IMG/VR virus record: IMGVR_UViG_3300032073_000293
Location: 1-22,042 of that record
Reading direction: 5' to 3' (one strand)
DNA length: 22,042 nucleotides
Origin: a virus
A program made the translations under genes and the position numbers. Of the stretch, positions 1,131 through 21,861 are shown piece after piece (positions within the stretch are counted from its first letter, which is position 1; every line of letters begins with the position of its first letter). The notes beneath the pieces were generated by a model that saw only the letters and a program-made list of their open reading frames with translations, searched no databases and was not told the DNA's origin.

Positions 1131-4100
1131 CTAAAGTTGATTATAAATAGGTATTAACCGTTGTTCTAAAGTTTTTCCTATATTAAAACCGTTTTTTGCA
1201 ATTGTTTCTAAAGTTTCTGCAGTAGGTCCTAATAATGGCGATATAGGGGATCGACCCCATTCACTTGATTGTTGCATCATATTTAAAATAGTAAAAGGAC
1301 CGTATACACCCGACCTATCTACTATTTCAGCCATATATTCAGACCAATCCATACGATCTGTCCTAAAGTATTTATCAGAAGCTTCTACTCCTGGTAGTAA
1401 CCAAGCTAACCCATTCTTAGCATACTCACGTAATTCAAGCCCAAGCATAGTTAAAGGTAAAGTTGTTAAAGCAGCTAATGCAAGAAACCCAGCAGTAGAA
1501 GAATATGCTGCAGCTGCAGTATCTCCTTCTTTTAATCTAGTACGAGCTTCTCTAGCTCCCCCTGCAAGAATTACTTTGCCATAGGCCCAGAAAAAAGATT
1601 TTAACTGCCAAATCAATGCAAATCTTGGGTCTGAAGCCCACATTGGTCGTTCTGCTGCATTAGGTCTAAGAATAGAGCTTTCTACAAAACGGGTTAAACC
1701 ATCACGAACTTTTACCCCTACATCTGTGGACATATCTCTACCACTAGCTAACCATGCTTTAACCTCATCAGGTTTTAAACCTAATTCATCTAAATATCTC
1801 AATGACCGATCATTCATTGTTGCTGGATCAGCGTGTCGAATAATAAAGTTAATCCCCATATTAGTCGCAAAAATACGAGTAAATTTTGTAAAAACATTTA
1901 ACCCAGTATATTTAAAAAAGAAATCAGAAGTTTTTCTAGCTGCAGGAGACAAAAATTGTCGTTCTGATTCTGTTAAAAAAACAGTCGCTACAGTTTCTGA
2001 AGCAATAACACCAATATCTCTTGCAAAAATTTCAGCCTCTTTGTAGTTTTTTATACTGTTAATTATTTCTTTCAAACCAGAAGTTAAACCAACAAAATCT
2101 TTTGAAGCTATCATTGGCCCTGCTAATTCAGTAAAACTAGCTAATGTTACAAAAGGTAAAATAGTGTAAAACTGAATTACTTGCGCCCATGAATTTACGT
2201 TTCTCCAAAATGGATTCATAGGAGATTTTTGATACCCAAGATATGTTTCAATTATTTCACGGGCTTTTTCTCTATTTTTAGGAGACAACTTTTCTAATTC
2301 AGGGCCAAGAATATCCTGACCTTTTTCATTTTTAGTATGGCGATTCCATTCAACTCGTTTTGTAACACTATTGATGTATTCAGTTACTGTTTCATCAGGT
2401 TTACGTAAAAAACCAGCATCACGCAAAGCTTTAGCATTAACTTGAGCAGTTAGTTTACGGCCTCTTTGTCTAGCTGCTTGTGGGTTTGGCTCCCATACAG
2501 ACTGTTCGGCTAAATTTTGAACATTATCCATTTGTTCAATCATTTCAATAATTGCTTTTTTAACATCATTCTTAGCTTGTTTATTATCTAGTTGTCCAGA
2601 CTCTCTTAAAACAAGTTCTAAGTATGCATTAGGATCAGAAGCTATTGCTTCTAAATCTAATATTACAGGAGTGTAATTATCACGTTGCCCAATTTTTGTG
2701 TTACTTGGGGCTATATAATCATTAAATACTTTTTTATAAAAATCCCTAACCGCTTTTGCTTGATCAGATAACTGGTCATATGTAAAAGTTTCATTTTCTG
2801 CTTCTTGTATTGCTTCAACTATTGCAGGGTCTGTTGGATCACCGACAGTATCTAAAAATAAACTTTCTAAACGTTGTCTTGCTCTGCCTATTTCTGGGAC
2901 CATTCCTAAAACAGTAGCCCCTGATTCCCGTTGAGATTTACCTTGTTGCGCTCTTACATAGAATATGTCTGCAATTGCGCTTGAAGCAATCCTTCGTAAA
3001 TAACTATCTGCACTAAATAAAAGATTGTAAACAGGTTTAATCTCTTCGCCATTAAGAATACGATCTGCAATTTGTTTTACAGCTGATACGGTTCTTTCTA
3101 ATTCCGTACCACCTTTTTGTTGGGTTTGTTGATTTAGTTTTTTAATAAAACGTTTTTCAACCCAATAATCAGGTTTAATTCGGTCTGTATTTTTTCGACT
3201 TTCTACAACTGTATCTATAAAAGTTTCAAATGTTTGGTTAAGCGGAGTACCCCAACGTTCTTGATAACGTGCAGAAGCTTGCCTCCAAAACTTTCTCATT
3301 TCTCTTATAAAATCTTTAAAAGCACGATCTACAATATTTTTTGGCTTACGATTAATAAATCGTTTAGTAGCTCTTTTAGCTATTTGATCAGCAAAAAACT
3401 CATTAAAAGCTTTACTTTCATCTTGATATTGTTGCATCAACAAATCATAACTAGGGTCATTTTGAAAAGCCCGAAATAAACGATCTCGTATTTCTGAATT
3501 TTCTAAAAGAGTATCTTTAAACTCATTAACAAATGCATGACCTATTTCATGGGCAGAAGTTAAACCTAAACCCAAAGTATTTTGCGTGGGCCTTATTAAA
3601 ATAAGTGTCCTACCATCTTTAAGCCTAATAGCTCTACCAAGAGCAGAAGTATTTGGGTCAATAAAATTCTTAGTTGCATCAATAACGCCACTGTCTTGTA
3701 TTACTTCTGCACCAAGTACCTTTTTAAAAACGTCATCTAAAATGCCAGCGGCTTCTAAGTTTTGAATTATTTCAGAAGAAAGAACAATGGGTGGGTTTTT
3801 TAATTTTAAAAAAGAAAGCAAATCTTTAATATATGCAACTACTTTAGCGTCTTTTAATCCGTAATCCATAGGTAATTCAAGTTGACCATCCACAAGAGCA
3901 AGACCAGCTTCTTGCGCTCTTTTTACGGCTATGAATTTTTCTGCAGCGGAATCTTGTGGGTCTGGAGGAGTAGGAGGATTTACCCCATATTCTAAGGTGT
4001 CAATAGTATCGTACAGCCTAGTAAACTCATTAATTTCTTGCGTGGTTAACTCAGAAAAAGGTTTCTTTCCATCGTTAGTAAGCTCGTTTAACTGCCTATG

Positions 4101-7100
4101 GAGTTCAATTATTTGAGCATCTGTATCTGAAGTATCTAAAGTGTCATCGTCATAAATAGGCTGAGTGTCAACAATAGTTTTTCCGTCACTGTCTTTAACT
4201 ATATTGCCATTACTATCAAACCTAACAGTATTATATTCAGTAACTGGAGTAGCTGATAGTTTTCTTCGTCTTCCTCTCGCTACGTTATTTGGTTGTACGC
4301 TTCTTCTATAACTATTCCAATAATCCCATATCCAACTTGCATTACCCCCTAACACTGTTAAATTTTGTTCCATTTCTTCAAGCGTTACTGAAGAATCTTT
4401 TCCTACATTTTGATTTTCATTTGCTTTAATTGTTTCTGGTTCTGATAAAGTAACTGTTCCAACAGCAGGTGTAGTAGGCCCTCTTGTTAAATTAGGAGTG
4501 TCAGTAGTCTCTTGGTCTATGCGTCTAGCTGGTCTGTAAACTATGTCACCATCTTCATCTCTAATAATGTTTCCGTCTTCATCACGCTCTGGTATCAAAT
4601 TTTCTGACATAACTTCTGTTTCAGAACCTAAACCAGCTTGCTCTTCACGAGGAGGAGTTATAGGTTCTCTACGCCTAGCTGTAATTATTCGCCCACCAGA
4701 AGGAACTGATTGTCTAAGTTGATTACGATTTCGCTCTAAACTTGCTTCAGTTGTAACTTTTTCTGAAACAATAACACCGTTACGATCCACAACTTGAAGG
4801 ACTAAATTACCTTGCGTTTGTTCTTCAGGGCGTAAACCAAAACCACGAACTTCAGGTAATTCAGGATTAATACGAGGCTTACCATTTTTGTCTCTGACAA
4901 TATTGCCTTGATTATCTCGTAAGTATAATGATGCGCCTCCCTCCCGTTGCGCTTTTATTAATTGAGCAATGGTAAGTTCGTTGCCGTCAATTATAGCCGC
5001 AGGAATGTTTAAGTTAGCTAAACTAGCTACATCAGTAATTGATTCACCATTAAAAGAAACATCATACCCAGCGATTAAAAGTTCAGCCATTATGTCGCTA
5101 AACCCTTGTAAAGCAGTATTAAAAGGATCTGTCCCTTCAAACCTACCTGTTGACGCTTCCGCTACTCTCTGACCAGAACGATTTAAATCTACTAAATTCA
5201 CACGGGAAGTTTTACCATCAGGAGAGGTAATGGTAACCCTAGAGTTTTTTGCAAATTTCCCTTTCTTTGCTTTTCTTACCGCTAGTCGTAAAAACTGAGC
5301 AAGAGGAACACGTACTACTTGTTGTTCGGGAGGAAGAGAACGATCTTGAAATGTAAATAATTGCTCTGAGCTAGGAGAAATTCTAACAAGTTGAAAATCA
5401 CCATCTGCGTTTCTAATTTCAATTTGAGCATCAGGATCAAAGTTTTTTAAATCAACTGCATTCCTTAACAAAGACTGTGTATAGAAACGGGCTTCCCCGT
5501 TCTCAAAATCAGTAGGGCCAAATAAAGCCTCATATTGATCTCTAAGTTCTTGCTCCCCTGGAAATAAAGGCCCTTGATTTCTACTAGAAAAAGTTCGTAA
5601 TACTTCCTCTTGTATATCTTGTTCTGTTAAATCAGGATTAAACTCTTCTTGAAACTCTTCTTGAAACCCTTCGGGAATCTCATCTGAAAAACCATCAGGA
5701 TAAGCTCTTTCATAAAGTATTCTACCTGCTTCTTCTGCGCCATAAACCCTTGTAAGTCTTCTCCGTTCTATAATCTCCAAAGCCATTTCAGGATCATTAG
5801 TTTGCTCCACAAGCTCACTAAAATACTGTTCATCTTCAGCAGAATACCTACGCCTATCTTCTTCCTCAAGATCAAGATTAGGATCGTCAGCAACCTCTTC
5901 AGCAAGCCTTCTTTTATTCCTAGCTTCTAACGTTTGAGTTAATGTAGCAGTTTCAACCCGCCCGTTTTTTGGGGCTAATCGTCTTCCTGCTTCCATTGCA
6001 TTTTCTAAATTTTCTTGTGTAGTTACTTCTTCAGAAACAACATTATTATCTTTATCAAATACTTGAACGACTAAATCTTCACCTGTTACTTGACTTTTTA
6101 CTGAACTATAACCAAGAGCTTCTTTTAAAGAACGGTCACTTGCATTATCTCTAATAACAGCTTCAACAAGGTTTTTGTATGGACTTATGATTGTTCCTTT
6201 GCCTGGAACAAAGGCTGTGTAAGTTGCAAAATCATTAATTACTGTATTTTGTATTTGCCCGTCCCGTGTAGCTCCCTGTGTTGGGTTTTTACCTGCTACC
6301 CAAACAGCGTTCTTTTGGCTTCCTCCTATAGAACGATCTGTCATTGCTTCTAATTGGGCATTAATATCTTTCTGAGACTCTGGAGTAGTAATACCAGCGT
6401 ACATATCCCCGTACTGTTCTGCTTCAATCGCACGAGAAACAATAACATCTCGCCCTTTTTCTTTTAGATCATTAGCTTTATCAAAGATTTCTTTTGTTAA
6501 ATTTTGAGCAAATTCATTATTTTGTACTTGTGAAACACCACTAGCTAAAGCTCCACCAGCTGCACCAAGAGAACCCCCACCAAAGAAACCCATAAAAGCT
6601 GCTTCTGCAAGACGCATCTGAGCCTCTTCTACGGTATAGTCATCGTCCAGTGAAAACCGATTAGCAACAGCAATACCTTCTTGGACAAGTTCTGTTCCCG
6701 ATTCAACAGTAGAAGAACGCAACGCAGACTTTCCAATATCAGACGCAAAACGAGATAAAAAACTATCTTCGCCAATAGACCTTTTTTTAGCGACATTAAA
6801 TAATGATTTTGCTACTAAAGCTTCACCACCTACGCCAATGGCAGCTTGCGGTAGAGCAATTCCTGCAGCCCTTAAAGCTGTGCCTCTATCTAGCTCTTGA
6901 CCTGACTCCAAAGCTTCAGAAAGATTGCTGCCAGAAAGAGGAACAAATTCAGAAGCACCTGCACCAACTAAAGCACCTGTTGTTATTGCCCTACGAGTCT
7001 CTTTCTTTTGTTGTTGGCGAAATAACTTATAAGCATTTTCAGCTAATTCTAGTTCATCAAGATCAGCTTCATTTCTAGCAACTTTTTCTACTGTATCTTG

Positions 7101-7553
7101 TAAAAGCCTTTTAGCAACAGAACGGTTAGTAGATGTTAAAATCCCTTTACCAACAGCAGCTGATACGCCACCAACTCCTGCACCAACAATAGAGCTAACA
7201 GCGTAAGGAAAAAGTTGTCCTGTTCCTTTTGCTATTTGGGTAAAAAACCCACCAACTGTAGGTTCGTCTACGAATTGCGAAAAAGATTCTATTGTTTGAA
7301 CGGGTGCAGCTGCAAGGTCTTCTTCTACTCTAGCTTGTTCAATGTTTCTTGCTGCTGATTCTGAATCACCTAATAAAGTATTTGTAATAGCTTTGAAATA
7401 CTCAACATCAGCACCAAGCTGTTTAGCTGTAGACCTAACCCCTGCTGTAAATGAATCTACTACCCCAGTAACAGGAGTAGGAGCAAACTGTTGTTCTTCA
7501 GGACGAACAGTTCTAAGAGCCTCCTTACGAATCAGATCATCAAATTCACTCAT
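1131..7553 (-). CDS. Giant internal/ejection virion protein with zinc-metallopeptidase motif, 2140 aa
   Basis: Inferred to be carried in the virion and ejected into the host envelope. Numbered from the ATG at 7553: a Gly/Ala-rich hydrophobic stretch lies near residues 110-140 (PYAVSSIVGAGVGGV) and another near 200-260. A duplicated module sits near 485-545 and 905-965. Acidic, Arg-rich linkers fill 560-700. HEIGH at 1335-1339 with FNEFFAD (E1385) downstream forms a gluzincin-like zinc site. Hydrophobic helices lie near 1790-1820 and 2010-2040. The motif RPNAAERPMWASDPRFALIW near the C-terminus is one I recall from large internal proteins of other environmental phages. I prefer the ATG at 7553 to the one seven codons earlier (7574) because AGGA precedes it and the overlap with the upstream gene falls to 8 bases (ATGAGTGA). 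No lytic transglycosylase motif was seen. The gene looks more AT-rich than the packaging genes. Confidence 0.8.
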   Translation of the reverse strand: MSEFDDLIRKEALRTVRPEEQQFAPTPVTGVVDSFTAGVRSTAKQLGADVEYFKAITNTLLGDSESAARNIEQARVEEDLAAAPVQTIESFSQFVDEPTVGGFFTQIAKGTGQLFPYAVSSIVGAGVGGVSAAVGKGILTSTNRSVAKRLLQDTVEKVARNEADLDELELAENAYKLFRQQQKKETRRAITTGALVGAGASEFVPLSGSNLSEALESGQELDRGTALRAAGIALPQAAIGVGGEALVAKSLFNVAKKRSIGEDSFLSRFASDIGKSALRSSTVESGTELVQEGIAVANRFSLDDDYTVEEAQMRLAEAAFMGFFGGGSLGAAGGALASGVSQVQNNEFAQNLTKEIFDKANDLKEKGRDVIVSRAIEAEQYGDMYAGITTPESQKDINAQLEAMTDRSIGGSQKNAVWVAGKNPTQGATRDGQIQNTVINDFATYTAFVPGKGTIISPYKNLVEAVIRDNASDRSLKEALGYSSVKSQVTGEDLVVQVFDKDNNVVSEEVTTQENLENAMEAGRRLAPKNGRVETATLTQTLEARNKRRLAEEVADDPNLDLEEEDRRRYSAEDEQYFSELVEQTNDPEMALEIIERRRLTRVYGAEEAGRILYERAYPDGFSDEIPEGFQEEFQEEFNPDLTEQDIQEEVLRTFSSRNQGPLFPGEQELRDQYEALFGPTDFENGEARFYTQSLLRNAVDLKNFDPDAQIEIRNADGDFQLVRISPSSEQLFTFQDRSLPPEQQVVRVPLAQFLRLAVRKAKKGKFAKNSRVTITSPDGKTSRVNLVDLNRSGQRVAEASTGRFEGTDPFNTALQGFSDIMAELLIAGYDVSFNGESITDVASLANLNIPAAIIDGNELTIAQLIKAQREGGASLYLRDNQGNIVRDKNGKPRINPELPEVRGFGLRPEEQTQGNLVLQVVDRNGVIVSEKVTTEASLERNRNQLRQSVPSGGRIITARRREPITPPREEQAGLGSETEVMSENLIPERDEDGNIIRDEDGDIVYRPARRIDQETTDTPNLTRGPTTPAVGTVTLSEPETIKANENQNVGKDSSVTLEEMEQNLTVLGGNASWIWDYWNSYRRSVQPNNVARGRRRKLSATPVTEYNTVRFDSNGNIVKDSDGKTIVDTQPIYDDDTLDTSDTDAQIIELHRQLNELTNDGKKPFSELTTQEINEFTRLYDTIDTLEYGVNPPTPPDPQDSAAEKFIAVKRAQEAGLALVDGQLELPMDYGLKDAKVVAYIKDLLSFLKLKNPPIVLSSEIIQNLEAAGILDDVFKKVLGAEVIQDSGVIDATKNFIDPNTSALGRAIRLKDGRTLILIRPTQNTLGLGLTSAHEIGHAFVNEFKDTLLENSEIRDRLFRAFQNDPSYDLLMQQYQDESKAFNEFFADQIAKRATKRFINRKPKNIVDRAFKDFIREMRKFWRQASARYQERWGTPLNQTFETFIDTVVESRKNTDRIKPDYWVEKRFIKKLNQQTQQKGGTELERTVSAVKQIADRILNGEEIKPVYNLLFSADSYLRRIASSAIADIFYVRAQQGKSQRESGATVLGMVPEIGRARQRLESLFLDTVGDPTDPAIVEAIQEAENETFTYDQLSDQAKAVRDFYKKVFNDYIAPSNTKIGQRDNYTPVILDLEAIASDPNAYLELVLRESGQLDNKQAKNDVKKAIIEMIEQMDNVQNLAEQSVWEPNPQAARQRGRKLTAQVNAKALRDAGFLRKPDETVTEYINSVTKRVEWNRHTKNEKGQDILGPELEKLSPKNREKAREIIETYLGYQKSPMNPFWRNVNSWAQVIQFYTILPFVTLASFTELAGPMIASKDFVGLTSGLKEIINSIKNYKEAEIFARDIGVIASETVATVFLTESERQFLSPAARKTSDFFFKYTGLNVFTKFTRIFATNMGINFIIRHADPATMNDRSLRYLDELGLKPDEVKAWLASGRDMSTDVGVKVRDGLTRFVESSILRPNAAERPMWASDPRFALIWQLKSFFWAYGKVILAGGAREARTRLKEGDTAAAAYSSTAGFLALAALTTLPLTMLGLELREYAKNGLAWLLPGVEASDKYFRTDRMDWSEYMAEIVDRSGVYGPFTILNMMQQSSEWGRSPISPLLGPTAETLETIAKNGFNIGKTLEQRLIPIYNQL

Positions 7554-9984
7554 TTGATCCTGTTGCCCTTGCATTATTAATTGCTACTCTAGTCAGCAAG
7601 TAATTTTTAAGCATTGGAAGCGTTTTAAGATCATCTCTTACATCTATATCGCCACCAATTTTTTCACCATTGCCATCAACAACATAAAATTCAGTAACCT
7701 TATTAGGATCAGTTGAATTAGCTCTTAATCTATCAAAACCTGCTCCTTTACCAAGTGTAGAAGCATTAAAAGTAGCTAAAAAATCTTCCTGTGTTACTGC
7801 ATCAAATAAACCTTCATTTTCTTTTGCTAATGACTGCAGCACTCCCATTGCAGCCCTATCAGATTCTTTTGTAACAAAATCAAAATCCTTTTGGTTTCTT
7901 GTTCCAGTAATTTGACCACCACTACCTCTAACAACAAACCTGTCTACCTGTTGATCTAGCTCTCTTATAATAGAACTAGCCTGTCGTTGGAAATTATCAT
8001 CAGTTGGGGATAGCGAAATAATATTACTAATTCTTTGTGACAAACCTAAATTATCTGGATCAGTTGAATTAAAGGCATCAAGCGTAGAAGTAAATTCTTC
8101 TCGATCATCTTTAGAAAGCTCGCTTAACTGATCTGTTACGGTCTCTAAATACTTAGTTTTAGCTTCTTGTGCATTTGTATCTGCATTTTTAGCAGAAGTT
8201 TCTGCATTCATTCTATTAATTTTAGTTGTTTCTATATTTGTTGCAGCAGTAACTGCTGAAGGCGTAGATAAAGTCGCGTCACCCGTTGCTAATACATTAT
8301 CTATTGCTTTACGAATTGCAGTACGTTCAGCTGGATTTTCTGTTCCTGCTAACACAATCGCACGGGTAACTAACTGATCTTTAAGAGGTGCTGATCTCAA
8401 ACTAGCTAAAGTAGCTTCAACTCCATGCTCTTCCAATACTTTCTGAGCTTGATTCGCTTCTTCCCCTGTAATATTAAATTCACCTGCTTCTATTTTTGCA
8501 TCCATTTCACGTAAAACTTCAGGAAGTGCATTTGGATCAGCTGCGTTAAGTTTTGCAAGATTTTCTTCTGAAAATACTTTTTTCTCTAACGATTTATAAG
8601 CTACTTTTTCCATTTCAGGTGTAGCAACTCCAGCGTCAATAAGACCAGAAAGTTCTTTTTCTTTATCGGCTAAACTCGCTTCCAAAGAAGCTTTTTGATT
8701 TGCAGGAGCTAGTTCAATGTCTTTCTTAATTGTTTTAATTTCTTCTTTTGTTTTAGCGTAAATATTTGAGTTAGCAGTATTAATTAAAGTATTTCTTTGT
8801 GCAAAAAGATCACTTCTTTCTTGTTCTTTAGCCTCTCTATTTTTATTAGTAAGAGAGCCTGATAGCTCTTGATTTAATTTTTCAAGGTCTTTATCAATAC
8901 TTTTAACTTTAGCTCTATCTCTTCTAATCCCTTTATTAAATTTAGTATCACCACTTAGGTCGGTACTAAATAAGGAAGTTGTTGCGCCTACAACGGGTCC
9001 TGAAGTAGGGAAACGGGAAGAAGTCCCACGTTCCCCAGCAATTTCTTCTGGATCAACACCAACTGCTTCAGTTTGAAGGACGGGATCAACTTCAACGCCC
9101 AGCGTTTCAGCCATGTCCATAATAATGCCATTTCTTTCTTCTTCAGTTTCTGCGGCATCGTAAGCCATTTTAAACTTACGGGAAAAAGAAGCGTCATCAT
9201 TTGCTTGTGCAACGCCATCAACTGCGGTCATAACTTCACCTGCAAGTTTGTCTTTTTCTGCTTGCAGGGCAACTGTTCTTGCGTCTAAATTACTTAAAGT
9301 AACAGCAACCTCTCGATCAACGTTTCGACCAAATTCTGTGCCACTCATAATCTCATTCCTGATATGAGTTCCAAATTGAGAAGAAATTTTACTAGCGGTT
9401 AATAATACACCTGGGTCTGTTTCAGCTGCGGTTGCGTTTTCACTAAGAACACCATCTGTTCCGTCTTCATAAGTACCGCCAGCCCCAAATAACATTTTGC
9501 CATCTGGCCCTGTTTGAACAGGAAAAACTTTATCAAAAGTAAAACCGCCTTCTCGTTGCGCTGCATTCTTTGGTTGAAAATTTAACATCCCTTCGACTAA
9601 CGATTTTGCAGTCCTATCCCCTGATTCAAGCGCAGCGGCAAGAACACCATCGTTATAATTAATGGTTTTTCCATTTTCTCCAAAAGTTATGTATTTTTTA
9701 CCATCAAATTCAAAGTTCTTAGCAACATTAAAAACCTGTTGTGCATTATCTTCTCTGTTTGCTCTGTTTGTTACTCTAATTTGTTCAGCTGAGAGAGCAG
9801 TTTTAGCCTCAGTGCTAGCGTTACGAAAAGCTTCTTGGCCGTCAAATTGCCTTCTTTGTTCATCAAGTCTATCTCGACCTAATTGTATTTGTTGTTCTTG
9901 TAATTCAGCAGTACGCCTATTTGCGCTTTGCTGCATGAACATGCCAGCGAGTTGAGTAAATGCAGATGCTGGATTTTGTGCCAT
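7546..9984 (-). CDS. Coiled-coil internal virion (ejection-type) protein, 812 aa
   Basis: A large, hydrophilic, Gln/Ala/Glu-rich protein with no enzymatic motif that I can recognise. The N-terminus (AFTQLAGMFMQQSANRRTAE, then LQEQQIQLGRDRLDEQRRQF) is a Gln-rich amphipathic helix. Heptad-like coiled coil is clear near residues 345-450 (IDKDLEKLNQEL, IKTIKKDIEL, LEASLADKEKELSGL) and 575-625. It lies between two smaller structural proteins and the giant metallopeptidase protein, where podoviruses usually encode the proteins injected before the DNA. The ATG at 9984 has AGAGG seven to eight bases upstream, and the 3' end overlaps the next gene. The gene is real; the ejection role is inferred from size, composition and place. 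Confidence 0.7.
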   Translation of the reverse strand: MAQNPASAFTQLAGMFMQQSANRRTAELQEQQIQLGRDRLDEQRRQFDGQEAFRNASTEAKTALSAEQIRVTNRANREDNAQQVFNVAKNFEFDGKKYITFGENGKTINYNDGVLAAALESGDRTAKSLVEGMLNFQPKNAAQREGGFTFDKVFPVQTGPDGKMLFGAGGTYEDGTDGVLSENATAAETDPGVLLTASKISSQFGTHIRNEIMSGTEFGRNVDREVAVTLSNLDARTVALQAEKDKLAGEVMTAVDGVAQANDDASFSRKFKMAYDAAETEEERNGIIMDMAETLGVEVDPVLQTEAVGVDPEEIAGERGTSSRFPTSGPVVGATTSLFSTDLSGDTKFNKGIRRDRAKVKSIDKDLEKLNQELSGSLTNKNREAKEQERSDLFAQRNTLINTANSNIYAKTKEEIKTIKKDIELAPANQKASLEASLADKEKELSGLIDAGVATPEMEKVAYKSLEKKVFSEENLAKLNAADPNALPEVLREMDAKIEAGEFNITGEEANQAQKVLEEHGVEATLASLRSAPLKDQLVTRAIVLAGTENPAERTAIRKAIDNVLATGDATLSTPSAVTAATNIETTKINRMNAETSAKNADTNAQEAKTKYLETVTDQLSELSKDDREEFTSTLDAFNSTDPDNLGLSQRISNIISLSPTDDNFQRQASSIIRELDQQVDRFVVRGSGGQITGTRNQKDFDFVTKESDRAAMGVLQSLAKENEGLFDAVTQEDFLATFNASTLGKGAGFDRLRANSTDPNKVTEFYVVDGNGEKIGGDIDVRDDLKTLPMLKNYLLTRVAINNARATGSNE

Positions 9985-11254: not shown

Positions 11255-11667
11255 CAAACTCTCCTTGTATAAACAGAATGGTTTAGTTTCCATCCTGCGT
11301 CTAACCAACGCTGCGTAAACGGCTTTGGTGTACGAACTTCTAGCTCTATGTACCCTGCCTTACTTGCTTGCTCAGAAAAAAAGGGCATATGCTTTAATAC
11401 ACAATCTTTTCCCCTTTCTTCTGCCCATGCTATCCAAATCAATAGCGTTGACGTTCTTGCATACTCATCTTTTAAACCAGTGGTTACAACAAACCCTTCT
11501 GAAGCTACCCACAACTGTGCTTCACCATTAACACAAGCTGCATACACATCCTCTGGTATAAAAGTTAATTGCTCCTGATCTGTTAATATCTCCTGTATCC
11601 CATCCTTAACCCAAGGCCAGTGATCCCGAATATCAGATAACTGCGGCTCATCGGATCTCTCTTCCAT
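11254..11667 (-). CDS. Conserved phage protein, possibly GNAT-like fold, 137 aa
   Basis: The sequence (DHWPWVKDGIQEIL, PEDVYAACVNGEAQLWVA, TLLIWIAWAEERG, FFSEQASKAGYIELEVRTPK, WLDAGWKL) has the alternating strand-helix pattern of a compact alpha/beta protein. The central strand, the helix and the closing 'AGW...YTR' strand resemble GNAT-like acetyltransferase folds. I recall similar proteins of the same size beside podovirus neck genes. The acetyl-CoA loop (R/Q-x-x-G-x-G/A) is not clear, so activity cannot be claimed. It starts inside the end of the upstream gene with a 20-base overlap and an AGGAG site about nine bases upstream, and its stop overlaps the next start. It could be an inactive structural relative. 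Confidence 0.6.
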   Translation of the reverse strand: MEERSDEPQLSDIRDHWPWVKDGIQEILTDQEQLTFIPEDVYAACVNGEAQLWVASEGFVVTTGLKDEYARTSTLLIWIAWAEERGKDCVLKHMPFFSEQASKAGYIELEVRTPKPFTQRWLDAGWKLNHSVYTRRV

Positions 11668-12334
11668 ACCTGTTTCTCCTCCTGTTTAATGGTAGGAATG
11701 GCCCACCATATCGCACTTTCCTAGCTACGCCAGTATCTGACTGCGTTGCTTTACGCTCTGCAGTAGTTAAACCAACGTTATATATTTGCCTGTATACATC
11801 GGCTCCTCGTAGATCACTCCATTCTCGATTTGGCATACGCAACAATCGGAACAAAGTACCATTAACAATGGCTTCTCTGTGATCATCCATGATGTCATCA
11901 CTGCAACTGGTAGACGTATGTAACGGCTTTAATTGAACTCGTAACCGTGTACTGTTTGCCGTTGTCTCATTAGGCACGGGTACAAGATAAAACAATGTAC
12001 GAGACTGCTTAACAAAGTATTCAGGCGTGCCATAGTAAGAAGGCTCACGCCATTTAGGTTTGCGCTCCTCTAGTAACGTAGTAGAGATAGGCTCTAAAGC
12101 ATCTCCGTTGTACAACACCCACATAATTTTATGGACAGCTGTATCAGCTGGTGGCTCAAGGTCGTACTCATATATACCGGATACTGTTGTAATAGGATCT
12201 AGCTCTGCCTGATACACTCCTGTTTGCTCACATAACTCAATTACAGTAGAGCGAATATTTGATTCAATCAGTGAATCAGGGCAGCTTTGTACCATCGGGA
12301 TTATTTCAGGTAATAAAGACTCATACGTAGCCAT
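11648..12334 (-). CDS. Probable head-tail adaptor / neck protein, 228 aa
   Basis: The protein starts with a helical segment (YESLLPEIIPMVQSCPDSLI, then SNIRSTVIELCEQTG) followed by strands (GIYEYDLEPPADTAVHKIMW) and a module with LLEERKPKWREP and YFVKQSRTLFYLVPVP. This resembles small neck proteins of podoviruses, which bind under the portal and use an N-terminal helical bundle. The C-terminus is Arg-rich (LNRRRNRYGREIR). The ATG at 12334 directly follows the stop of the previous gene (TAA-ATG), with GGAG about ten bases upstream. The neighbouring 343-residue gene has the same adaptor style, which supports the role. I cannot match it to one named family with confidence. Confidence 0.65.
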   Translation of the reverse strand: MATYESLLPEIIPMVQSCPDSLIESNIRSTVIELCEQTGVYQAELDPITTVSGIYEYDLEPPADTAVHKIMWVLYNGDALEPISTTLLEERKPKWREPSYYGTPEYFVKQSRTLFYLVPVPNETTANSTRLRVQLKPLHTSTSCSDDIMDDHREAIVNGTLFRLLRMPNREWSDLRGADVYRQIYNVGLTTAERKATQSDTGVARKVRYGGPFLPLNRRRNRYGREIR

Positions 12335-13366
12335 TTAACCTACTCCCCCCATTTGAGCTTGTGGATTAACCTCAGTATTTGGGCTGGTTGTTAAATCAAT
12401 TTGAGACTTCCCAGTAACTAAAGCTAAGAATAAATTATAATAAGAGTTTGCTTTTTGTTGACTACCTACATACTCACTATCTTTCATATAACACATATAT
12501 AAAACATAATGCATAACGGCATTTGCAAACACATCAGGGACAGCTAAATTACCATTTGCAGCTACTGTCGCTGGATTAGCTGAATAAATAATTTCTAAAA
12601 AAGAAGAAGCCCCACTAGCAACCCCAGGATAAACATAGTAATTACGAGGGTTTTGATCTTCATACATATAATGCTTAATTAAAGAGCCGTGCTTTGCATC
12701 CCCTTTTACAGTAGGGTCATGCCAAGACGGTTGTATTGAATCCAATGAATCTCTTGAAACTAAACGAGTAGCTCGTTTTCCTGTGCCTACTCTTGTGCCT
12801 GTAAGAACCAAAAATCCCATCCCAGCATGTGCCGTACAATAGGTGTATAACGTAGGTGCGTCAATTCCAACGGTGATCTTTGTAAATGCCGTACCAGATC
12901 CAGGTGTGCCTGACGTTGTTACACCTGTTGTATACTCAGAACCACCGCCATGTGAGCCGTTAGCCGTTGTAGAAAACCGTAGTGGATGCCCACTGTTACT
13001 AGAGTGAGACTGATCAAAAGTATAAGTGCTACCCTCTTCAAGCGTTAGTGTTTGAAAAGAACCGTCAGTATAAAACTTATTACCACCAGAATTAACCACA
13101 GTTATAGTGTACGTCTTTTCAATCATCGCCATGTTGCGTACTACACGGAGCAAACGATTACCGTCATCCGGTATTGTCTGCTTAGTGCCTTCGCTTAACG
13201 CAACGGTTGCATTGGTAGCAGTCGCATCAGGCTTATAAAGAGCTATCTCTCGCTGAGCGTCATTAACCCAAAGCACCAGTTCATTAGTAGAAGACCAGCG
13301 AATGCCAGCAGTATCTTGTAACGTTTGTTGAACCCTATCTAAAACACTTTGAACTGAAACAGTCAT
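12335..13366 (-). CDS. Head-tail adaptor with inserted cupredoxin-like domain, 343 aa
   Basis: Residues 1-82 and about 193-330 look like one phage adaptor family (I recall DUF6682). The N-terminal helix is VQSVLDRVQQTLQDTAGIRW with WVNDAQREIALYKPDA. The rest runs RATRLVSRDSLDS, IKHYMYEDQNPRNYYVYPG, ANAVMHYVLYMCYMKDSEYV. The adaptor is split by an insert of about 108 residues (85-192) with the repeated strands of a cupredoxin: FYTDGSFQTLTLEEGSTYTF, SGHPLRFSTT, TLYTYCTAHAGMGFLVLTG. His127, Cys177, His180 and Met183 match the His, Cys, His and Met ligands of a type 1 copper site (C-x2-H-x2-M). Similar inserts occur in marine phage structural proteins, from memory. Copper binding is inferred. The ATG at 13366 is preceded by AGGTGA. 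Confidence 0.8.
   Translation of the reverse strand: MTVSVQSVLDRVQQTLQDTAGIRWSSTNELVLWVNDAQREIALYKPDATATNATVALSEGTKQTIPDDGNRLLRVVRNMAMIEKTYTITVVNSGGNKFYTDGSFQTLTLEEGSTYTFDQSHSSNSGHPLRFSTTANGSHGGGSEYTTGVTTSGTPGSGTAFTKITVGIDAPTLYTYCTAHAGMGFLVLTGTRVGTGKRATRLVSRDSLDSIQPSWHDPTVKGDAKHGSLIKHYMYEDQNPRNYYVYPGVASGASSFLEIIYSANPATVAANGNLAVPDVFANAVMHYVLYMCYMKDSEYVGSQQKANSYYNLFLALVTGKSQIDLTTSPNTEVNPQAQMGGVG
12791..13114 (-). other. Cupredoxin-like insert domain within the adaptor gene
   Basis: This is the part of the 343-residue gene encoding residues 85-192. It is rich in Thr, Ser and Gly and predicted to be all beta. It interrupts an otherwise helical adaptor between NMAMIEK and GTGKRATR. The candidate copper ligands His127, Cys177, His180 and Met183 all fall inside it. 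The domain boundaries are judged by eye. Confidence 0.6.
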
Positions 13367-14299: not shown

Positions 14300-15445
14300 T
14301 TATTGTGCAGTATCAAGAGCAATCACACCAAAGTCTTGAACAGACCCACTTTGATCACTGTTGTACTTAGGTTTACGGAGGCCAAAGATTTTGCCTATCG
14401 AAATACCAGCTTGGTTCTCGTAGTCAAAAGTATCTTCAACGATTTCAGGCAACCCAATGTCAGCCATAGCTAGGGATTGTGCGCCACAGAACAAGGCTCT
14501 CGCACCTGTTACGTTAGCGTTTGCACCCCACTTGTAGCCAGCTGCACCAGCATTAGAGTTAGTACCTGTAGTTGCGCCAGATGTATTATAAACGTGACGG
14601 AACTCATGGACCATTACGCCATCAACCATCAAGCTAGAAGTGCCTGAGAACAATTCGTTCTGAGGTCCTCTAACTGAAGCTTGTCTAACGTTAGCCAAGA
14701 AGTCTGAGTCAAGCTTGAGATCAGCCATCTGAGAAGGTGTTACAAATAAATGGAACACTTCTTGGTTTCCTGCAGCACGCATACCACGGAGATAGTTATC
14801 CTTGGCAAAGGCTTTAAGATCAACAATATGTCGATACTTCAGAACGTCAGTAGCAGCTACTGCAGTAGTGTCACCTGCTGCAAGATTGTCACCATTGACT
14901 CTTCTGTGCCTGTCGGCTGTAGGAGCAGAAACATCAGAGGAGAACTCAAGGTCTGCCAAATCATGTCCTGCTGTTGGAGATGCATTTCTCAATGCGCCAT
15001 TTGTTTTGTTGGTGTAAGCAACACCTGCTAACGTTAAAAACGCTAACTGGTCTATTCGATCAGACATAGCATAAGCTAGTGCATCACGAGATTGCTCACG
15101 GAAGTTAACAACACTCTTCTGGTCAGCCAATCTACCAGACATGCGGTTTGCAAATCGTAGTTGATCTAGCTCGATGGTGATGTCAAAGCTTCTGAGTGCT
15201 TCTTCATTACCTTCCAGAGTGTTGTCACCAGTGATACCATCGCCTGTCATATCCGCTAATAGCGTTATAACAGCCTTAGTACCCTTCTCGTTCTTTGTTA
15301 ATTCGGTTACACGCTGTACCATAGCGTTCTGACCAGCCCCTGCGAACTGATTAATGAACGACATGTTACGTGCAACTCGCCAAAAGTCGCGTGACCAAGC
15401 GGTTAGTTGATTGCTAGTCAGCGACGCAAAGTTAGTAAGAGCCAT
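14300..15445 (-). CDS. Major capsid protein, N4 gp56 family, 381 aa
   Basis: The sequence matches the N4-gp56 family of HK97-fold major capsid proteins. The N-terminal block is FWRVARNMSFINQFAG, then AMVQRVTELTKNEKGTKAVI, then GDGITGDNTLEGNEEALRSF. It is followed by FANRMSGRLADQKSVVNFRE and SRDALAYAMSDRIDQLAFLT, which form the spine-helix region. The C-terminus has ARALFCGAQSLAMADIG and FGLRKPKYN. The length is close to the roughly 400 residues usual in the family. GGAG lies eight bases before the ATG at 15445. Uniquely in this window, the gene has its own long upstream region with a promoter-like element and stacked hairpins, which fits its need for the highest expression. The family assignment is firm. 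Confidence 0.95.
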   Translation of the reverse strand: MALTNFASLTSNQLTAWSRDFWRVARNMSFINQFAGAGQNAMVQRVTELTKNEKGTKAVITLLADMTGDGITGDNTLEGNEEALRSFDITIELDQLRFANRMSGRLADQKSVVNFREQSRDALAYAMSDRIDQLAFLTLAGVAYTNKTNGALRNASPTAGHDLADLEFSSDVSAPTADRHRRVNGDNLAAGDTTAVAATDVLKYRHIVDLKAFAKDNYLRGMRAAGNQEVFHLFVTPSQMADLKLDSDFLANVRQASVRGPQNELFSGTSSLMVDGVMVHEFRHVYNTSGATTGTNSNAGAAGYKWGANANVTGARALFCGAQSLAMADIGLPEIVEDTFDYENQAGISIGKIFGLRKPKYNSDQSGSVQDFGVIALDTAQ

Positions 15446-18061: not shown

Positions 18062-20221
18062 TTAAGTAGGTAAGTTTTCAGGGGTACGCATGTTAGGTAT
18101 ATCAGTTTGCGCTGGTTTTTTTGCAGCCGTCTGCATTGCTGTTGCTGCAATACGTGCTGCTGCGTTGGTTGTTTGTTGATTTGTTCTAACTTGATTTGTT
18201 GCCGCTGATAATTGTTTACGGAGATTCAGTTCTTCTTGCTTCATTTGCATCTTAGCTTGAAGTTCTGCAATCTTCATTTGAGGATCAATTTCAGAAGTTT
18301 CCTGAACCTTCGCAATATTAACTGCGGAGTCTGTTTGTAACTTCCTAACTTCAGCTTCCAGTTTCGCAAGTTCAAGCTGCACACGCTCCATTTCCATCTG
18401 CTGTTGCATCTGCATAACTTCTGCTTGTTCTGGTGTAGGCGGCTCTTGTCCTGTCATTGAACGAATGCGCTGAGCCAACTCATCTTTCTTAGCAAGATGT
18501 GAATACTGAATGATTGCATCATCAGGTATCGCCACGCCCACTTGTCGCAAGTTAAGTGCTTCAGCGAACTGCACTTCATCAAACGAATCACGAGCAGGAG
18601 CAGTAGACACAATCACATCATACTCGCCTAGCGTTAGGTCATTTATAATTTGTCCTTCAGGCGTTTCAACGTTAATGGCTACTTCTTCTCTTGGCTCCAT
18701 TGGCATATCTTCATTTGTTACCATGATAATTCTTTCTTCTGTGTAGAAGGTCTGTAACAAATTAAGCACACGCTCTGCCAGATACTGACGAGCCTTTCGC
18801 AAGTTATCCAGCGGAACCTGAATCATTATGACCCCACGATTCTGCTTTGCTTGAATCGCTACGCCACTCACTTCAGCAGAATCTGACCCCAGCATAGAGT
18901 CGTTGATACCAGAAATCGTCTGTATATTAGCGGCAGCTTTCTGCCCGATCCGGTCTAGCCCCGTAGGTATTTGATTAGGTTGGATTTTTACAGGGGGCGT
19001 AGAGCCACGGTTGTACTCCAGCACTAGCCCTGTTTCTGCGCCATGCTCTTCAAGGTCATCAGTTTGCAAGCCAACTAACGAGCCACTTTCTACCATCCAG
19101 CCGCTGTTAGCGGTGGTATTAACAATGTGTAGTTCCTGACTCGCAATCTTGTTGAGTTGTTCTTGCGGTGACAAAAGATTACGCACCATACCAAACGGAC
19201 GGCCCCTACGGAAATACGCAAAGAAAGGCACAATCGTAAAGTCGTTGTAAGGTGAAAAGTCATCATGCAGCACTACTCTGTCAGCAGTCACTGTCCAGCG
19301 CACCCTACGCTTAACTTTTGAAATAACGTTTAGCCCATATTCTTTAGCAAATTTTTTTGTCTTTTTATCGCCCCATGCTTCAGGTACGTCTCTTTGGTCC
19401 CCTGTCATGGGGTCAACGAAACAATCTACACGGTGCATCTTTTTGTACTGCCGTTCTATAACTCTAATAGAACGCACATTTCTGTAGTCATCTTCACTTG
19501 GCACACCTGACCCAAAATAGTCATCAGTCGGATCAAGATCACCGAATCGAGTTTCCTCATACTCAATGCTGTCGCGCCCGTAGCTGTTGCCGTTCTCAGC
19601 AACGAAACGTATCTTCTCTGCTTTGTCCTTGCCGTATAACTCTTGTATCTCGTCAAGCGTCATCCAGCGAGTTTCATATATTTCGTTCCAAGTCTTAGGG
19701 TCAGAGTCTTTTGCATCAGGATCAATCAATATATCAAGTGGATCTTTTGCAGTGATGCGTATCTCACCTTCAACGTGATCACTGAAATCCATACGCACAT
19801 CAAAGTACCCACGCCCGTCCATGATCAAGCCGTCACTGAATACCTGCTGCTCGACCCAATCTAACTTATTGTTATCAGCAATCTGCATAAACAATTTATT
19901 GAGTGTCATTGCAATCTCATTGTCACCGCCTCGTCTGGGCTTGAACTTAATGTCAGCCCTACGAGTAGCTTGCTCACCCAGAACAGTATTGATAGTAGGT
20001 AGAATAGTGTTGATCGTTAATGCAGGTCGGCCTTCTGCTTCAAGGTTTGCTAGGTCCTGTTCGTCCCATTGGTCCCCTCTATAGAAAGCATCGCATCGTT
20101 TTGCCATCTCAATATAATCAAGATGTCCATTGTCTCTTGCTCTGGTGTACCGACTCCACTGCGTTGTTGCAATCTCTTGCTCTTCTGCTGGAGAAACTTT
20201 TCTGCCTTTAATCTGCGCCAT
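18062..20221 (-). CDS. Portal protein, P22-type, 719 aa
   Basis: The dodecameric ring at one capsid vertex through which DNA is packaged and leaves. The length is almost that of P22 portal (725 aa). Recognisable blocks are MAKRCDAFYRGDQWDEQDLA, EGRPALTINTILPTINTVLG with EQATRRADIKFKPR (wing and clip start), DGLIMDGRGYFDVRMDFS, DPLDILIDPDAKDSDPKTWN, and RPFGMVRNLLSPQEQLNKIA with SGINDSMLGSDSAEVSGVAI (crown/stem region). Residues about 600-645 form a Gln/Met-rich coiled coil (QMQQQMEMERVQLELAKLEA), matching the barrel helices of long P22-like portals. The ATG is two bases after the terminase stop with a weak ribosome binding site, so coupling is likely. Confidence 0.92.
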   Translation of the reverse strand: MAQIKGRKVSPAEEQEIATTQWSRYTRARDNGHLDYIEMAKRCDAFYRGDQWDEQDLANLEAEGRPALTINTILPTINTVLGEQATRRADIKFKPRRGGDNEIAMTLNKLFMQIADNNKLDWVEQQVFSDGLIMDGRGYFDVRMDFSDHVEGEIRITAKDPLDILIDPDAKDSDPKTWNEIYETRWMTLDEIQELYGKDKAEKIRFVAENGNSYGRDSIEYEETRFGDLDPTDDYFGSGVPSEDDYRNVRSIRVIERQYKKMHRVDCFVDPMTGDQRDVPEAWGDKKTKKFAKEYGLNVISKVKRRVRWTVTADRVVLHDDFSPYNDFTIVPFFAYFRRGRPFGMVRNLLSPQEQLNKIASQELHIVNTTANSGWMVESGSLVGLQTDDLEEHGAETGLVLEYNRGSTPPVKIQPNQIPTGLDRIGQKAAANIQTISGINDSMLGSDSAEVSGVAIQAKQNRGVIMIQVPLDNLRKARQYLAERVLNLLQTFYTEERIIMVTNEDMPMEPREEVAINVETPEGQIINDLTLGEYDVIVSTAPARDSFDEVQFAEALNLRQVGVAIPDDAIIQYSHLAKKDELAQRIRSMTGQEPPTPEQAEVMQMQQQMEMERVQLELAKLEAEVRKLQTDSAVNIAKVQETSEIDPQMKIAELQAKMQMKQEELNLRKQLSAATNQVRTNQQTTNAAARIAATAMQTAAKKPAQTDIPNMRTPENLPT

Positions 20222-20223
20222 TG

Positions 20224-21861
20224 TTATGCACTCATCGATGACTTGGTTCGTTCAGGCTTCATCATGCTGTTTAACCTGTCGCGCCAACTGGGTGTATGAA
20301 TTACAGGGGCTTGATAGCTAGAAAATTCAGTCATCATAAGACCCAGCCATGCTAATGCATCTACTTGGTCATCATGTATGCCGCTTGGGAAACGCAACAA
20401 CTCTGCAACTAGCGGTCCTGTGAAGATCGCATCTTTGGGGAAATACACCATTCCTTGTTGCATCCGTCCCTGTATTGCTCTTGCCCTAGCTTCTTTGTCT
20501 CTTCTACCTGTCTTCAAGTCCTTAATGTATATCTCGTATAATCCTCTCTCCCGTATCCGCTTCTCCAAAAACGGACCTAATGCCATTTCAATGTGTCCTT
20601 TTTCAATGCCCACCATTGATGGTTTCCATTCTTCATAGAGATCAAGTATGCGCTCTACGATCTCGAAACCATCAAATCTACCACGTACTACATCAATGAC
20701 AAAGAGTTCATCTCTGTCATTGACTCCTATGACCATGCCTACGGTATAGTCATTTCGATCACGTTTACCTATCGCCAAGTCCCAAGCACAGTAGTAGCGC
20801 ATGGATTCTGGGTCAATGTCCTCGTCATCGTAATACTGAATCATCTCACGAGTAAAGTATTCTCCGTCATCTGATACCGGATTCTGCTGATATAGTGCTG
20901 ACCAATCACGGGGTCCTACTGCACTACGGATCTGACCCAACGCAGCTAAACTGTATCTTTCTGGGTGGAGTGCTTCTCCATGATCTCGATATTCTTCTTT
21001 CTCTTCTGCGATGGCAGGGTAGCGTACAACTTCCCAAAGGTCACCGCCCTCATCAGACGCTTTAAGCAATCGCCCAGCCAAGTCATCGTCATGCCAACGA
21101 GTAAGTATGACCAGAATGCCCCCACCAGGAGCCAATCGGGTATAGGCTGTGGAAGTGTACCAATCCCAATTAGCCGATCTATTATTCTCCGACTCACTGT
21201 CCTCACGGTTCTTGATAGGATCGTCAATAACGAGAACGTGCGCTCCTTTACCTGTGATACCACCGCCAACACCTGCAGCCACATAGCCGCCACCGCCTGT
21301 AGTCAGCCACGCTTCAGCCGACTGCGAATCTGGGTCAAGGCGTGTTTGAAACGCTGTTTTGTAAGTTGGCTCACGCAATAGTTGACGAACTTTACGACTG
21401 AATCCCATAGCCAACGAGCCTGAGTACGAACAAGAGATAAATTCGTGTTCAGGATTCCTGCCCAAGTGCCAAGCTGGGAAGGAGACAGATGCAAGCGTAC
21501 TTTTGCCATGACGAGGCGGCATAAAGAGCATAAGCCTTGGAGACTTTTTTGCCACCACATCACGACTGAATTGTTCCAAGCGTCTGCAAATATCTTTATG
21601 AACCCACCCTGCTTGGTAATCTGCGTTAAACCGTTCAACAAACGGGAGTAGCCTCTTGCGAGTAAGGATTCGGAGGGCGAGTTCTTTTCTTGCTTTGTCT
21701 TCAACGCTTAACTCCTCTGTTGTTTCTTGTGCCTGAATAGGTGCTGGTGCAGGAAGAGACTCTGTTCGATCCGCTTTACAGTAGACGCAAACGCCATCTG
21801 TCCCACTAAACAAAGTCTCTACGTGAAAATTGGTGCAAACAGCACACTGTTTTTTATTCAC
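20224..21861 (-). CDS. Terminase large subunit with N-terminal zinc ribbon, 545 aa
   Basis: The packaging ATPase and nuclease. The ATPase carries Walker A at 114-121 (MPPRHGKS), Walker B at 209-214 (VLVIDD) and the TRWH motif at 254-257. The RNase H-like nuclease shows D361 in CAWDLAIG, E420 in VGIEKGH, and D498 and D501 in HDDQVDALAW. Before the ATPase is an added module of about 30 residues with CxxC at 6-9 and CxxC at 25-28, a small zinc ribbon that many large terminases lack. The start is GTG, with GGAG five bases upstream, and overlaps the stop of the preceding gene as GTGA. All key catalytic residues are present, so the enzyme should be active. Confidence 0.95.
   Translation of the reverse strand: MNKKQCAVCTNFHVETLFSGTDGVCVYCKADRTESLPAPAPIQAQETTEELSVEDKARKELALRILTRKRLLPFVERFNADYQAGWVHKDICRRLEQFSRDVVAKKSPRLMLFMPPRHGKSTLASVSFPAWHLGRNPEHEFISCSYSGSLAMGFSRKVRQLLREPTYKTAFQTRLDPDSQSAEAWLTTGGGGYVAAGVGGGITGKGAHVLVIDDPIKNREDSESENNRSANWDWYTSTAYTRLAPGGGILVILTRWHDDDLAGRLLKASDEGGDLWEVVRYPAIAEEKEEYRDHGEALHPERYSLAALGQIRSAVGPRDWSALYQQNPVSDDGEYFTREMIQYYDDEDIDPESMRYYCAWDLAIGKRDRNDYTVGMVIGVNDRDELFVIDVVRGRFDGFEIVERILDLYEEWKPSMVGIEKGHIEMALGPFLEKRIRERGLYEIYIKDLKTGRRDKEARARAIQGRMQQGMVYFPKDAIFTGPLVAELLRFPSGIHDDQVDALAWLGLMMTEFSSYQAPVIHTPSWRDRLNSMMKPERTKSSMSA

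Follow-up and report, generated by a model that had tools for sequence, protein, structure and literature searches.

The stretch of DNA analysed here (the window) is a viral record of 22,042 bases, whose minus strand carries a cassette of head genes (Table 1). Among named phages, the capsid protein is closest to those of the KPP25 group of Pseudomonas phages (52.7% identity), and the terminase to that of Aeromonas phage phiA008 (48.6% identity). As expected for an adaptor of the SU10 type, the gene studied in this work lies among the terminase, portal and capsid genes. Directly downstream of it is a second gene of the SU10-adaptor family, which has no insert, so the two form a tandem pair of related neck proteins. 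Note that the window also contains, on the minus strand, a 2147-aa ORF (1131-7574) without any Pfam match at E 0.01, whose product is likely to be a very large virion protein of the internal or ejection type. An 812-aa ORF (7546-9984) likewise had no Pfam match at E 0.01.

Table 1. Coordinates of the features discussed in the text, with the evidence for each (residue numbers are those of the 343-aa protein).
Feature	Position	Strand	Evidence or remark
Terminase	20224-21861	minus	head cassette
P22-like portal	18062-20221	minus	head cassette
Capsid protein	14300-15445	minus	head cassette
Adaptor CDS, 343 aa, intact ORF	12335-13366	minus	PF24175, phrog_399, PDB 8jov chain 2
Adaptor N-terminal half, residues 1-80	13127-13366	minus	end-to-end alignment with the same half of insert-free adaptors (232-241 aa)
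Inserted cupredoxin-like domain, residues 81-192	12791-13126	minus	absent from L097, L098, L137 and others; AF2, Foldseek and profile matches
His127 codon (GHPLRF), predicted first copper ligand	12986-12988	minus	31/31 copies below 70% identity
Cys177 codon (CTAHAGM), predicted copper thiolate ligand	12836-12838	minus	30/30; ends predicted strand 94-98 of the domain model
His180 codon (CTAHAGM), predicted second His ligand	12827-12829	minus	30/30
Met183 codon (CTAHAGM), predicted axial ligand	12818-12820	minus	29/30; substitutions only Met to His (2 copies) and Met to Leu (1 copy)
Adaptor C-terminal half, residues 193-343	12338-12790	minus	PF24175 positions 68-185; aligned with insert-free adaptors
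Second SU10-adaptor-family gene	11648-12334	minus	PF24175 (E 3.6e-10), phrog_437

According to its family matches, the predicted 343-aa product is a head-to-tail adaptor of the SU10 type into which a further domain has been inserted. It matched the SU10_adaptor family PF24175 with an E-value of 8.5e-27 (95.3 bits, the curated cut-off being 27) and phrog_399 with an E-value of 3e-49, and both flanks of the insert belong to the latter as they do to the former. Chain 2 of PDB 8jov, presumably a protein of the Ralstonia phage GP4, was matched with an E-value of 1.8e-20 by residues 6-79 and 194-317 of the query, and the two matches are separated by only 3 residues of that chain. Thus, compared with the family that includes gp11 of phage SU10, the protein is an ordinary member that has gained about 109 residues at position 80.

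Close homologues of 232-241 aa lack the block of residues ~81-192, and they read VVRNM-SAASSGTGKR where the window protein reads VVRNM-[domain]-GTGKR. The first-pass annotation had taken the two adaptor halves for one family and had proposed aligning adaptors with and without the insert; PF24175, phrog_399 and 8jov chain 2 agree with the former, and the alignment gave a block insertion at residue 80. Its residue numbers were also correct, and the coordinates that it gave for the domain (12791-13114) correspond to residues 85-192. The insert is present in at least 11 distinct metagenomic adaptors (plus fragments) and absent from ~38 close homologues. The existence of both carriers and insert-free homologues indicates a true domain insertion and excludes an assembly chimera. 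In the phage collection, no record with the combination of adaptor and insert was found.

Nucleotide comparison with four close relatives gave dN/dS values of 0.13-0.27 in the insert, indicating purifying selection, although the constraint is looser than in the N-terminal half of the adaptor (0.05-0.08). In the adaptor tree, the presence or absence of the insert requires two state changes, which would allow two independent insertions. This possibility was set aside, since in the domain tree all the adaptor copies form a single clade with a support of 100/98. A single acquisition by the adaptor, followed by loss or transfer, would be the simpler history, and it is the one we prefer from these trees. 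Note that the L097 and L098 adaptors are near the insert clade yet do not carry the domain, which is therefore dispensable in those adaptors.

AlphaFold2 modelled the domain with high confidence (pLDDT 94.2, pTM 0.87) as a nearly all-beta structure, a beta sandwich of 9 strands. When this model was compared with the PDB using Foldseek, about 48 of the 50 matches listed were cupredoxin folds, with probabilities of 0.87-1.00; these included laccases, CueO, amicyanin, AcoP, nitrite reductase and the A domains of factors V and VIII, and the others among the 50 listed were one semaphorin and one antibody. The PDB matches were weak (best E-value 6e-3, TM 0.39-0.57; about 16-19% identity in the amicyanin alignments), so the relation to the classical cupredoxins is remote. 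Viral predicted structures matched the model far better, with E-values down to 3.5e-16 and TM up to 0.95, and some of them carry this very domain. Two short ‘beta-sandwich proteins’ in BFVD, A0A481Z6J5 (Pithovirus LCPAC302) and A0A481YVH3 (Marseillevirus LCMAC201), had a TM of about 0.68 to the predicted fold.

Profile searches gave the same family of proteins. A profile built from 119 members (A1) matched, in the PDB, copper nitrite reductase (1.6e-4), copper oxidase (1.6e-3), pseudoazurin (2.4e-3), plastocyanins (0.0065 to about 0.02) and amicyanin (0.13), as well as rusticyanin, and in the clearer of these alignments the first His of the query, the Cys with the next His, or all of them, were aligned on their counterparts in the blue copper proteins. 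The model touched by most of the individual members was the NCBIfam amicyanin TIGR02657 (22/119, best E-value 2.3e-4), while the best single-member scores were 1.6e-4 for the NCBIfam plastocyanin TIGR02656 and 5.4e-4 for the Pfam Copper-bind PF00127. For the window’s own domain there was no match to any curated copper model, neither to these three nor to others in Pfam and NCBIfam. A match of the insert to the carbohydrate-binding family CBM_4_9 (E 0.012-0.039) was partial and below the cut-off, and was rejected.

Type 1 copper sites use His, Cys, His and Met, with the Cys, His and Met clustered near the C-terminal strand. The order of the predicted ligands in the insert is the canonical one, and so is their arrangement in sequence and model: Cys177 ends the penultimate strand, and His180 and Met183 lie in the loop ahead of the last strand. 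The C-x2-H-x2-M spacing of the family is that of amicyanin. Conservation was assessed on 301 copies reduced to 31 below 70% identity (pairwise identity median 35%, minimum 15%). Just 3 of the 105 alignment columns were invariant, and these were His127, Cys177 and His180 in the numbering of the window protein; the Met183 column was tied with two others, a Gly and a Phe. These four are the top metal-type columns of the family. No other conserved Cys or Met column exists in the 31-member set, and the one other His column (16/21), that of a GxHGGG motif, was ruled out as a fifth ligand because of this low count and because the residue is lost in the pelagiphage Baldr.

Because a profile search might itself favour ligand-bearing copies, the four ligand columns and their neighbours were masked and the copies searched for again. 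The masked profile found 301 copies, and C-x2-H-x2-M was present in 297 of them. A residual bias remains, since the loci were first gathered by short patterns, some of them on ligand motifs; any one of the six patterns sufficed, however. The four exceptions were two changes of Met to His (CGNHSNH, in L213 at 2480-2761 and in L216), one of Met to Leu (CPTHAGL, in L270) and one decayed copy of phage S-RIM2 (L166, ORF 2294-7432, residues 570-686), which keeps the first His and has lost the Cys, His and Met. A second copy in the same S-RIM2 protein (residues 377-468) retains the C..H..M. Natural cupredoxins also vary at the axial position. Persistence of the ligand pattern across 301 homologous copies is far beyond chance, and it is, as far as alignments without binding data can tell, what a working metal site would show.

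Together, fold and conservation support the proposal of the first-pass annotation that the adaptor contains a cupredoxin-like domain with a full type 1 ligand set. That proposal would have fallen if the predicted fold had not been a Greek-key sandwich, or if the ligands had not been conserved. A beta sandwich was predicted and its nearest solved structures, though remote, are overwhelmingly cupredoxins, and His127 (in GHPLRF) and Cys177, His180 and Met183 (in CTAHAGM), whose numbering we confirmed, are conserved. This support covers the fold and the ligands; copper loading and any role in redox activity, stability or attachment are inferences without support of their own. We consider it very probable that the insert is a divergent cupredoxin whose type 1-type site is intact, a statement made without any metal measurement. 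It shares with amicyanin, plastocyanin and pseudoazurin the His...Cys-x2-His-x2-Met pattern, the sandwich and the ligand-on-ligand profile alignment. These three proteins, in contrast, are free soluble electron carriers, whereas the phage domain is part of virion structural proteins; moreover, its close subfamily has a conserved mid-domain stretch of its own, GxHGGGSEYTTGV, unlike those proteins.

The domain is not restricted to adaptors. A tblastn search with the insert found matches in 160 of 50,697 phage records, which were named as Synechococcus, Prochlorococcus, Pelagibacter or Methylophilales phages, as cyanophages, or as uncultured or marine phages, and the first scan of viral contigs gave at least 595 relatives. 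The carriers scored as tail fibre, T4-like baseplate wedge (phrog_708), fibre connector (phrog_677) and virion structural proteins, and the PHROG families with the domain were 693, 30742, 27200, 708 and 677. Tail fibres, T4-like gp9/gp10 baseplate proteins and adaptors of marine phages thus all contain it. In tail proteins of phages such as S-TIM5, P-HM2, HTVC028P and Melnitz, the homologous domain has the same ligands and sits on a fibre, baseplate wedge or connector, not on an adaptor. The statement in the first-pass annotation that marine phage structural proteins bear similar inserts is borne out by these records and PHROG carriers. The annotations of these phage carriers are tail fibre, baseplate, structural or hypothetical only, and no copper annotation was found among them. 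The domain is a widespread phage domain family without a Pfam or NCBIfam entry.

A scan of genome contigs, with a single sequence as the query, located the domain on 36 contigs, nearly all of them marine MAGs and single cells as judged by their titles; all 38 copies on these contigs keep C..H..M. Some carriers look like cellular proteins of the surface type and retain the ligands: L377 is a fusion to the PEBP family, L375 is of the cadherin type, and L359 is a giant protein of Bacteroidetes, encoded on a contig of 1.06 Mb, that contains Big and FG-GAP domains. Proteins of the L359, L375 and L377 types are a possible cellular source of the family. The domain behaves as a mobile, exposed module, and its placement in fibre, wedge, connector and adaptor families and in bacterial surface-type proteins is consistent with an exposed role.

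In SU10 a dodecamer of the adaptor sits on the portal, and the protein combines a bundle of helices with a fibre-dock domain and an embracing segment at the C-terminus (PMC9509320). The T7 adaptor has the same dodecamer architecture, and its fibre dock is a small beta barrel (PMC6702177). In the window protein the insertion is mid-chain: the N-terminal helices precede it, the C-terminal helix pair follows, and the part in which it falls appears to be the beta-rich one. From this position we infer that the domain is an outer decoration of the neck at the fibre dock; by analogy with these relatives, the insert is probably located in the region where long tail fibres dock, so that the neck may be encircled by as many as 12 copies. 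Outside the insert, the AlphaFold2 model of the full-length adaptor was of poor quality (overall pLDDT 52, mostly below 50 in the adaptor part), so this placement rests on sequence alignment and on the published descriptions of the relatives.

The best overall explanation, which we infer and regard as likely, is a grafted divergent cupredoxin that is displayed on the neck, takes up metal after lysis and has a role in attachment or at the dock. Of this, the data show the insertion, the family, the conserved ligands, the purifying selection and the remote homology to blue copper proteins, whereas the events proposed for the virion are inferred. A copy of the mobile family would have entered the beta-rich middle of the adaptor once. 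Its apo form would fold in the host cytoplasm, and since this is reducing and copper-poor, we infer that the site would fill after lysis; the metal, copper or another soft one, would come from the medium or from the lysed host. The bound metal may then rigidify the C-terminal ligand loop and make a surface patch near the fibres, which would aid a first, reversible attachment to the surface of the host or keep the fibre dock in working shape. That copper is bound in the virion is an inference, made without metal measurement, that we hold to be somewhat more probable than the contrary. Reversible attachment near the fibres is the likeliest use and a structural metal staple is nearly as likely, and the window cannot separate them; attachment as the main use of the domain can be inferred only tentatively.

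Several other explanations have to be weighed. The site could hold zinc, iron or a further non-copper metal, or structural Cu(I) only, and serve as a staple that hardens the neck and fibres in seawater, with no part in redox chemistry or attachment. In vitro, zinc and Cu(I) also bind to sites made of His, Cys and Met. There is a precedent on fibres, the seven iron ions in the HxH motifs of T4 gp37 (as cited in PMC11705849). Like those motifs in T4-like tail fibres, the domain would be a proposed metal site on a virion protein that is exposed in marine phages (PMC11705849), but the iron sites are trimeric and their fold and ligands are unrelated to those of the cupredoxin-like domain. The conserved Met and the amicyanin-like spacing are a copper signature, and insert-free members of the adaptor family evidently assemble, which goes against a staple. 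We consider this explanation rather unlikely, without dismissing it.

The domain could also be a pure adhesion or decoration module, a metal-free beta sandwich of the Ig-like kind that is common on phage particles, in which the Cys, His and Met have a structural role or persist as a relic. In bacterial proteins it adjoins Big, cadherin and FG-GAP adhesin domains, it is promiscuous among tail proteins, Pfam Ig-type models score weakly on some members, and among the structural relatives one is annotated as an immunoglobulin domain protein. A relic, however, cannot explain why three of the four ligand columns are invariant and the fourth is kept in 97% while most other columns vary, or why, bar one decayed copy, the ligand changes are limited to Met to His or Leu; this makes a metal-free module improbable. 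Least convincing is a ‘copper Trojan horse’, in which copper on the virion, or mimicry of a copper-handling protein of the host, would bait the metal uptake of the host outer membrane: the domain does occur on fibre and fibre-proximal proteins, and the Ferrojan Horse hypothesis makes an analogous proposal for iron in marine phages (PMC11705849), but no receptor is known, nothing in the window indicates one, and the hosts (Synechococcus, Prochlorococcus, Pelagibacter and Methylophilales) are diverse.

We therefore return to a metal-binding divergent cupredoxin displayed on the neck. No description of a cupredoxin, blue copper protein or plastocyanin in phage particles was found in the open literature, as far as titles and abstracts extend and with most subscription journals outside that body. 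The components, cupredoxin and SU10 adaptor, are known; their combination in an adaptor, and a virion-wide family with near-invariant ligands, appear to be undescribed. Our analysis gives an identity to a domain that is now filed merely as tail fibre, baseplate, structural or hypothetical.

Finally, since the ligand residues are nearly unchanged in hundreds of related virus proteins, the particles may carry copper on their surface. The broader idea that unrelated lineages of marine phages bear true type 1 copper sites on their virions as a mobile family shared by adaptors, fibres and baseplates, and use the copper in attachment or genome delivery, is possible, but at present doubtful; such phages would represent a previously undescribed class of viral structural metalloproteins. 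If the site binds copper, the L213 and L216 (Met to His) and L270 (Met to Leu) copies would be useful spectroscopic variants, and particles of abundant marine phages would be copper carriers. This would provide a concrete virion metal chemistry, a counterpart of what has been proposed for iron in phage tails, with a possible part for phages in marine copper speciation.
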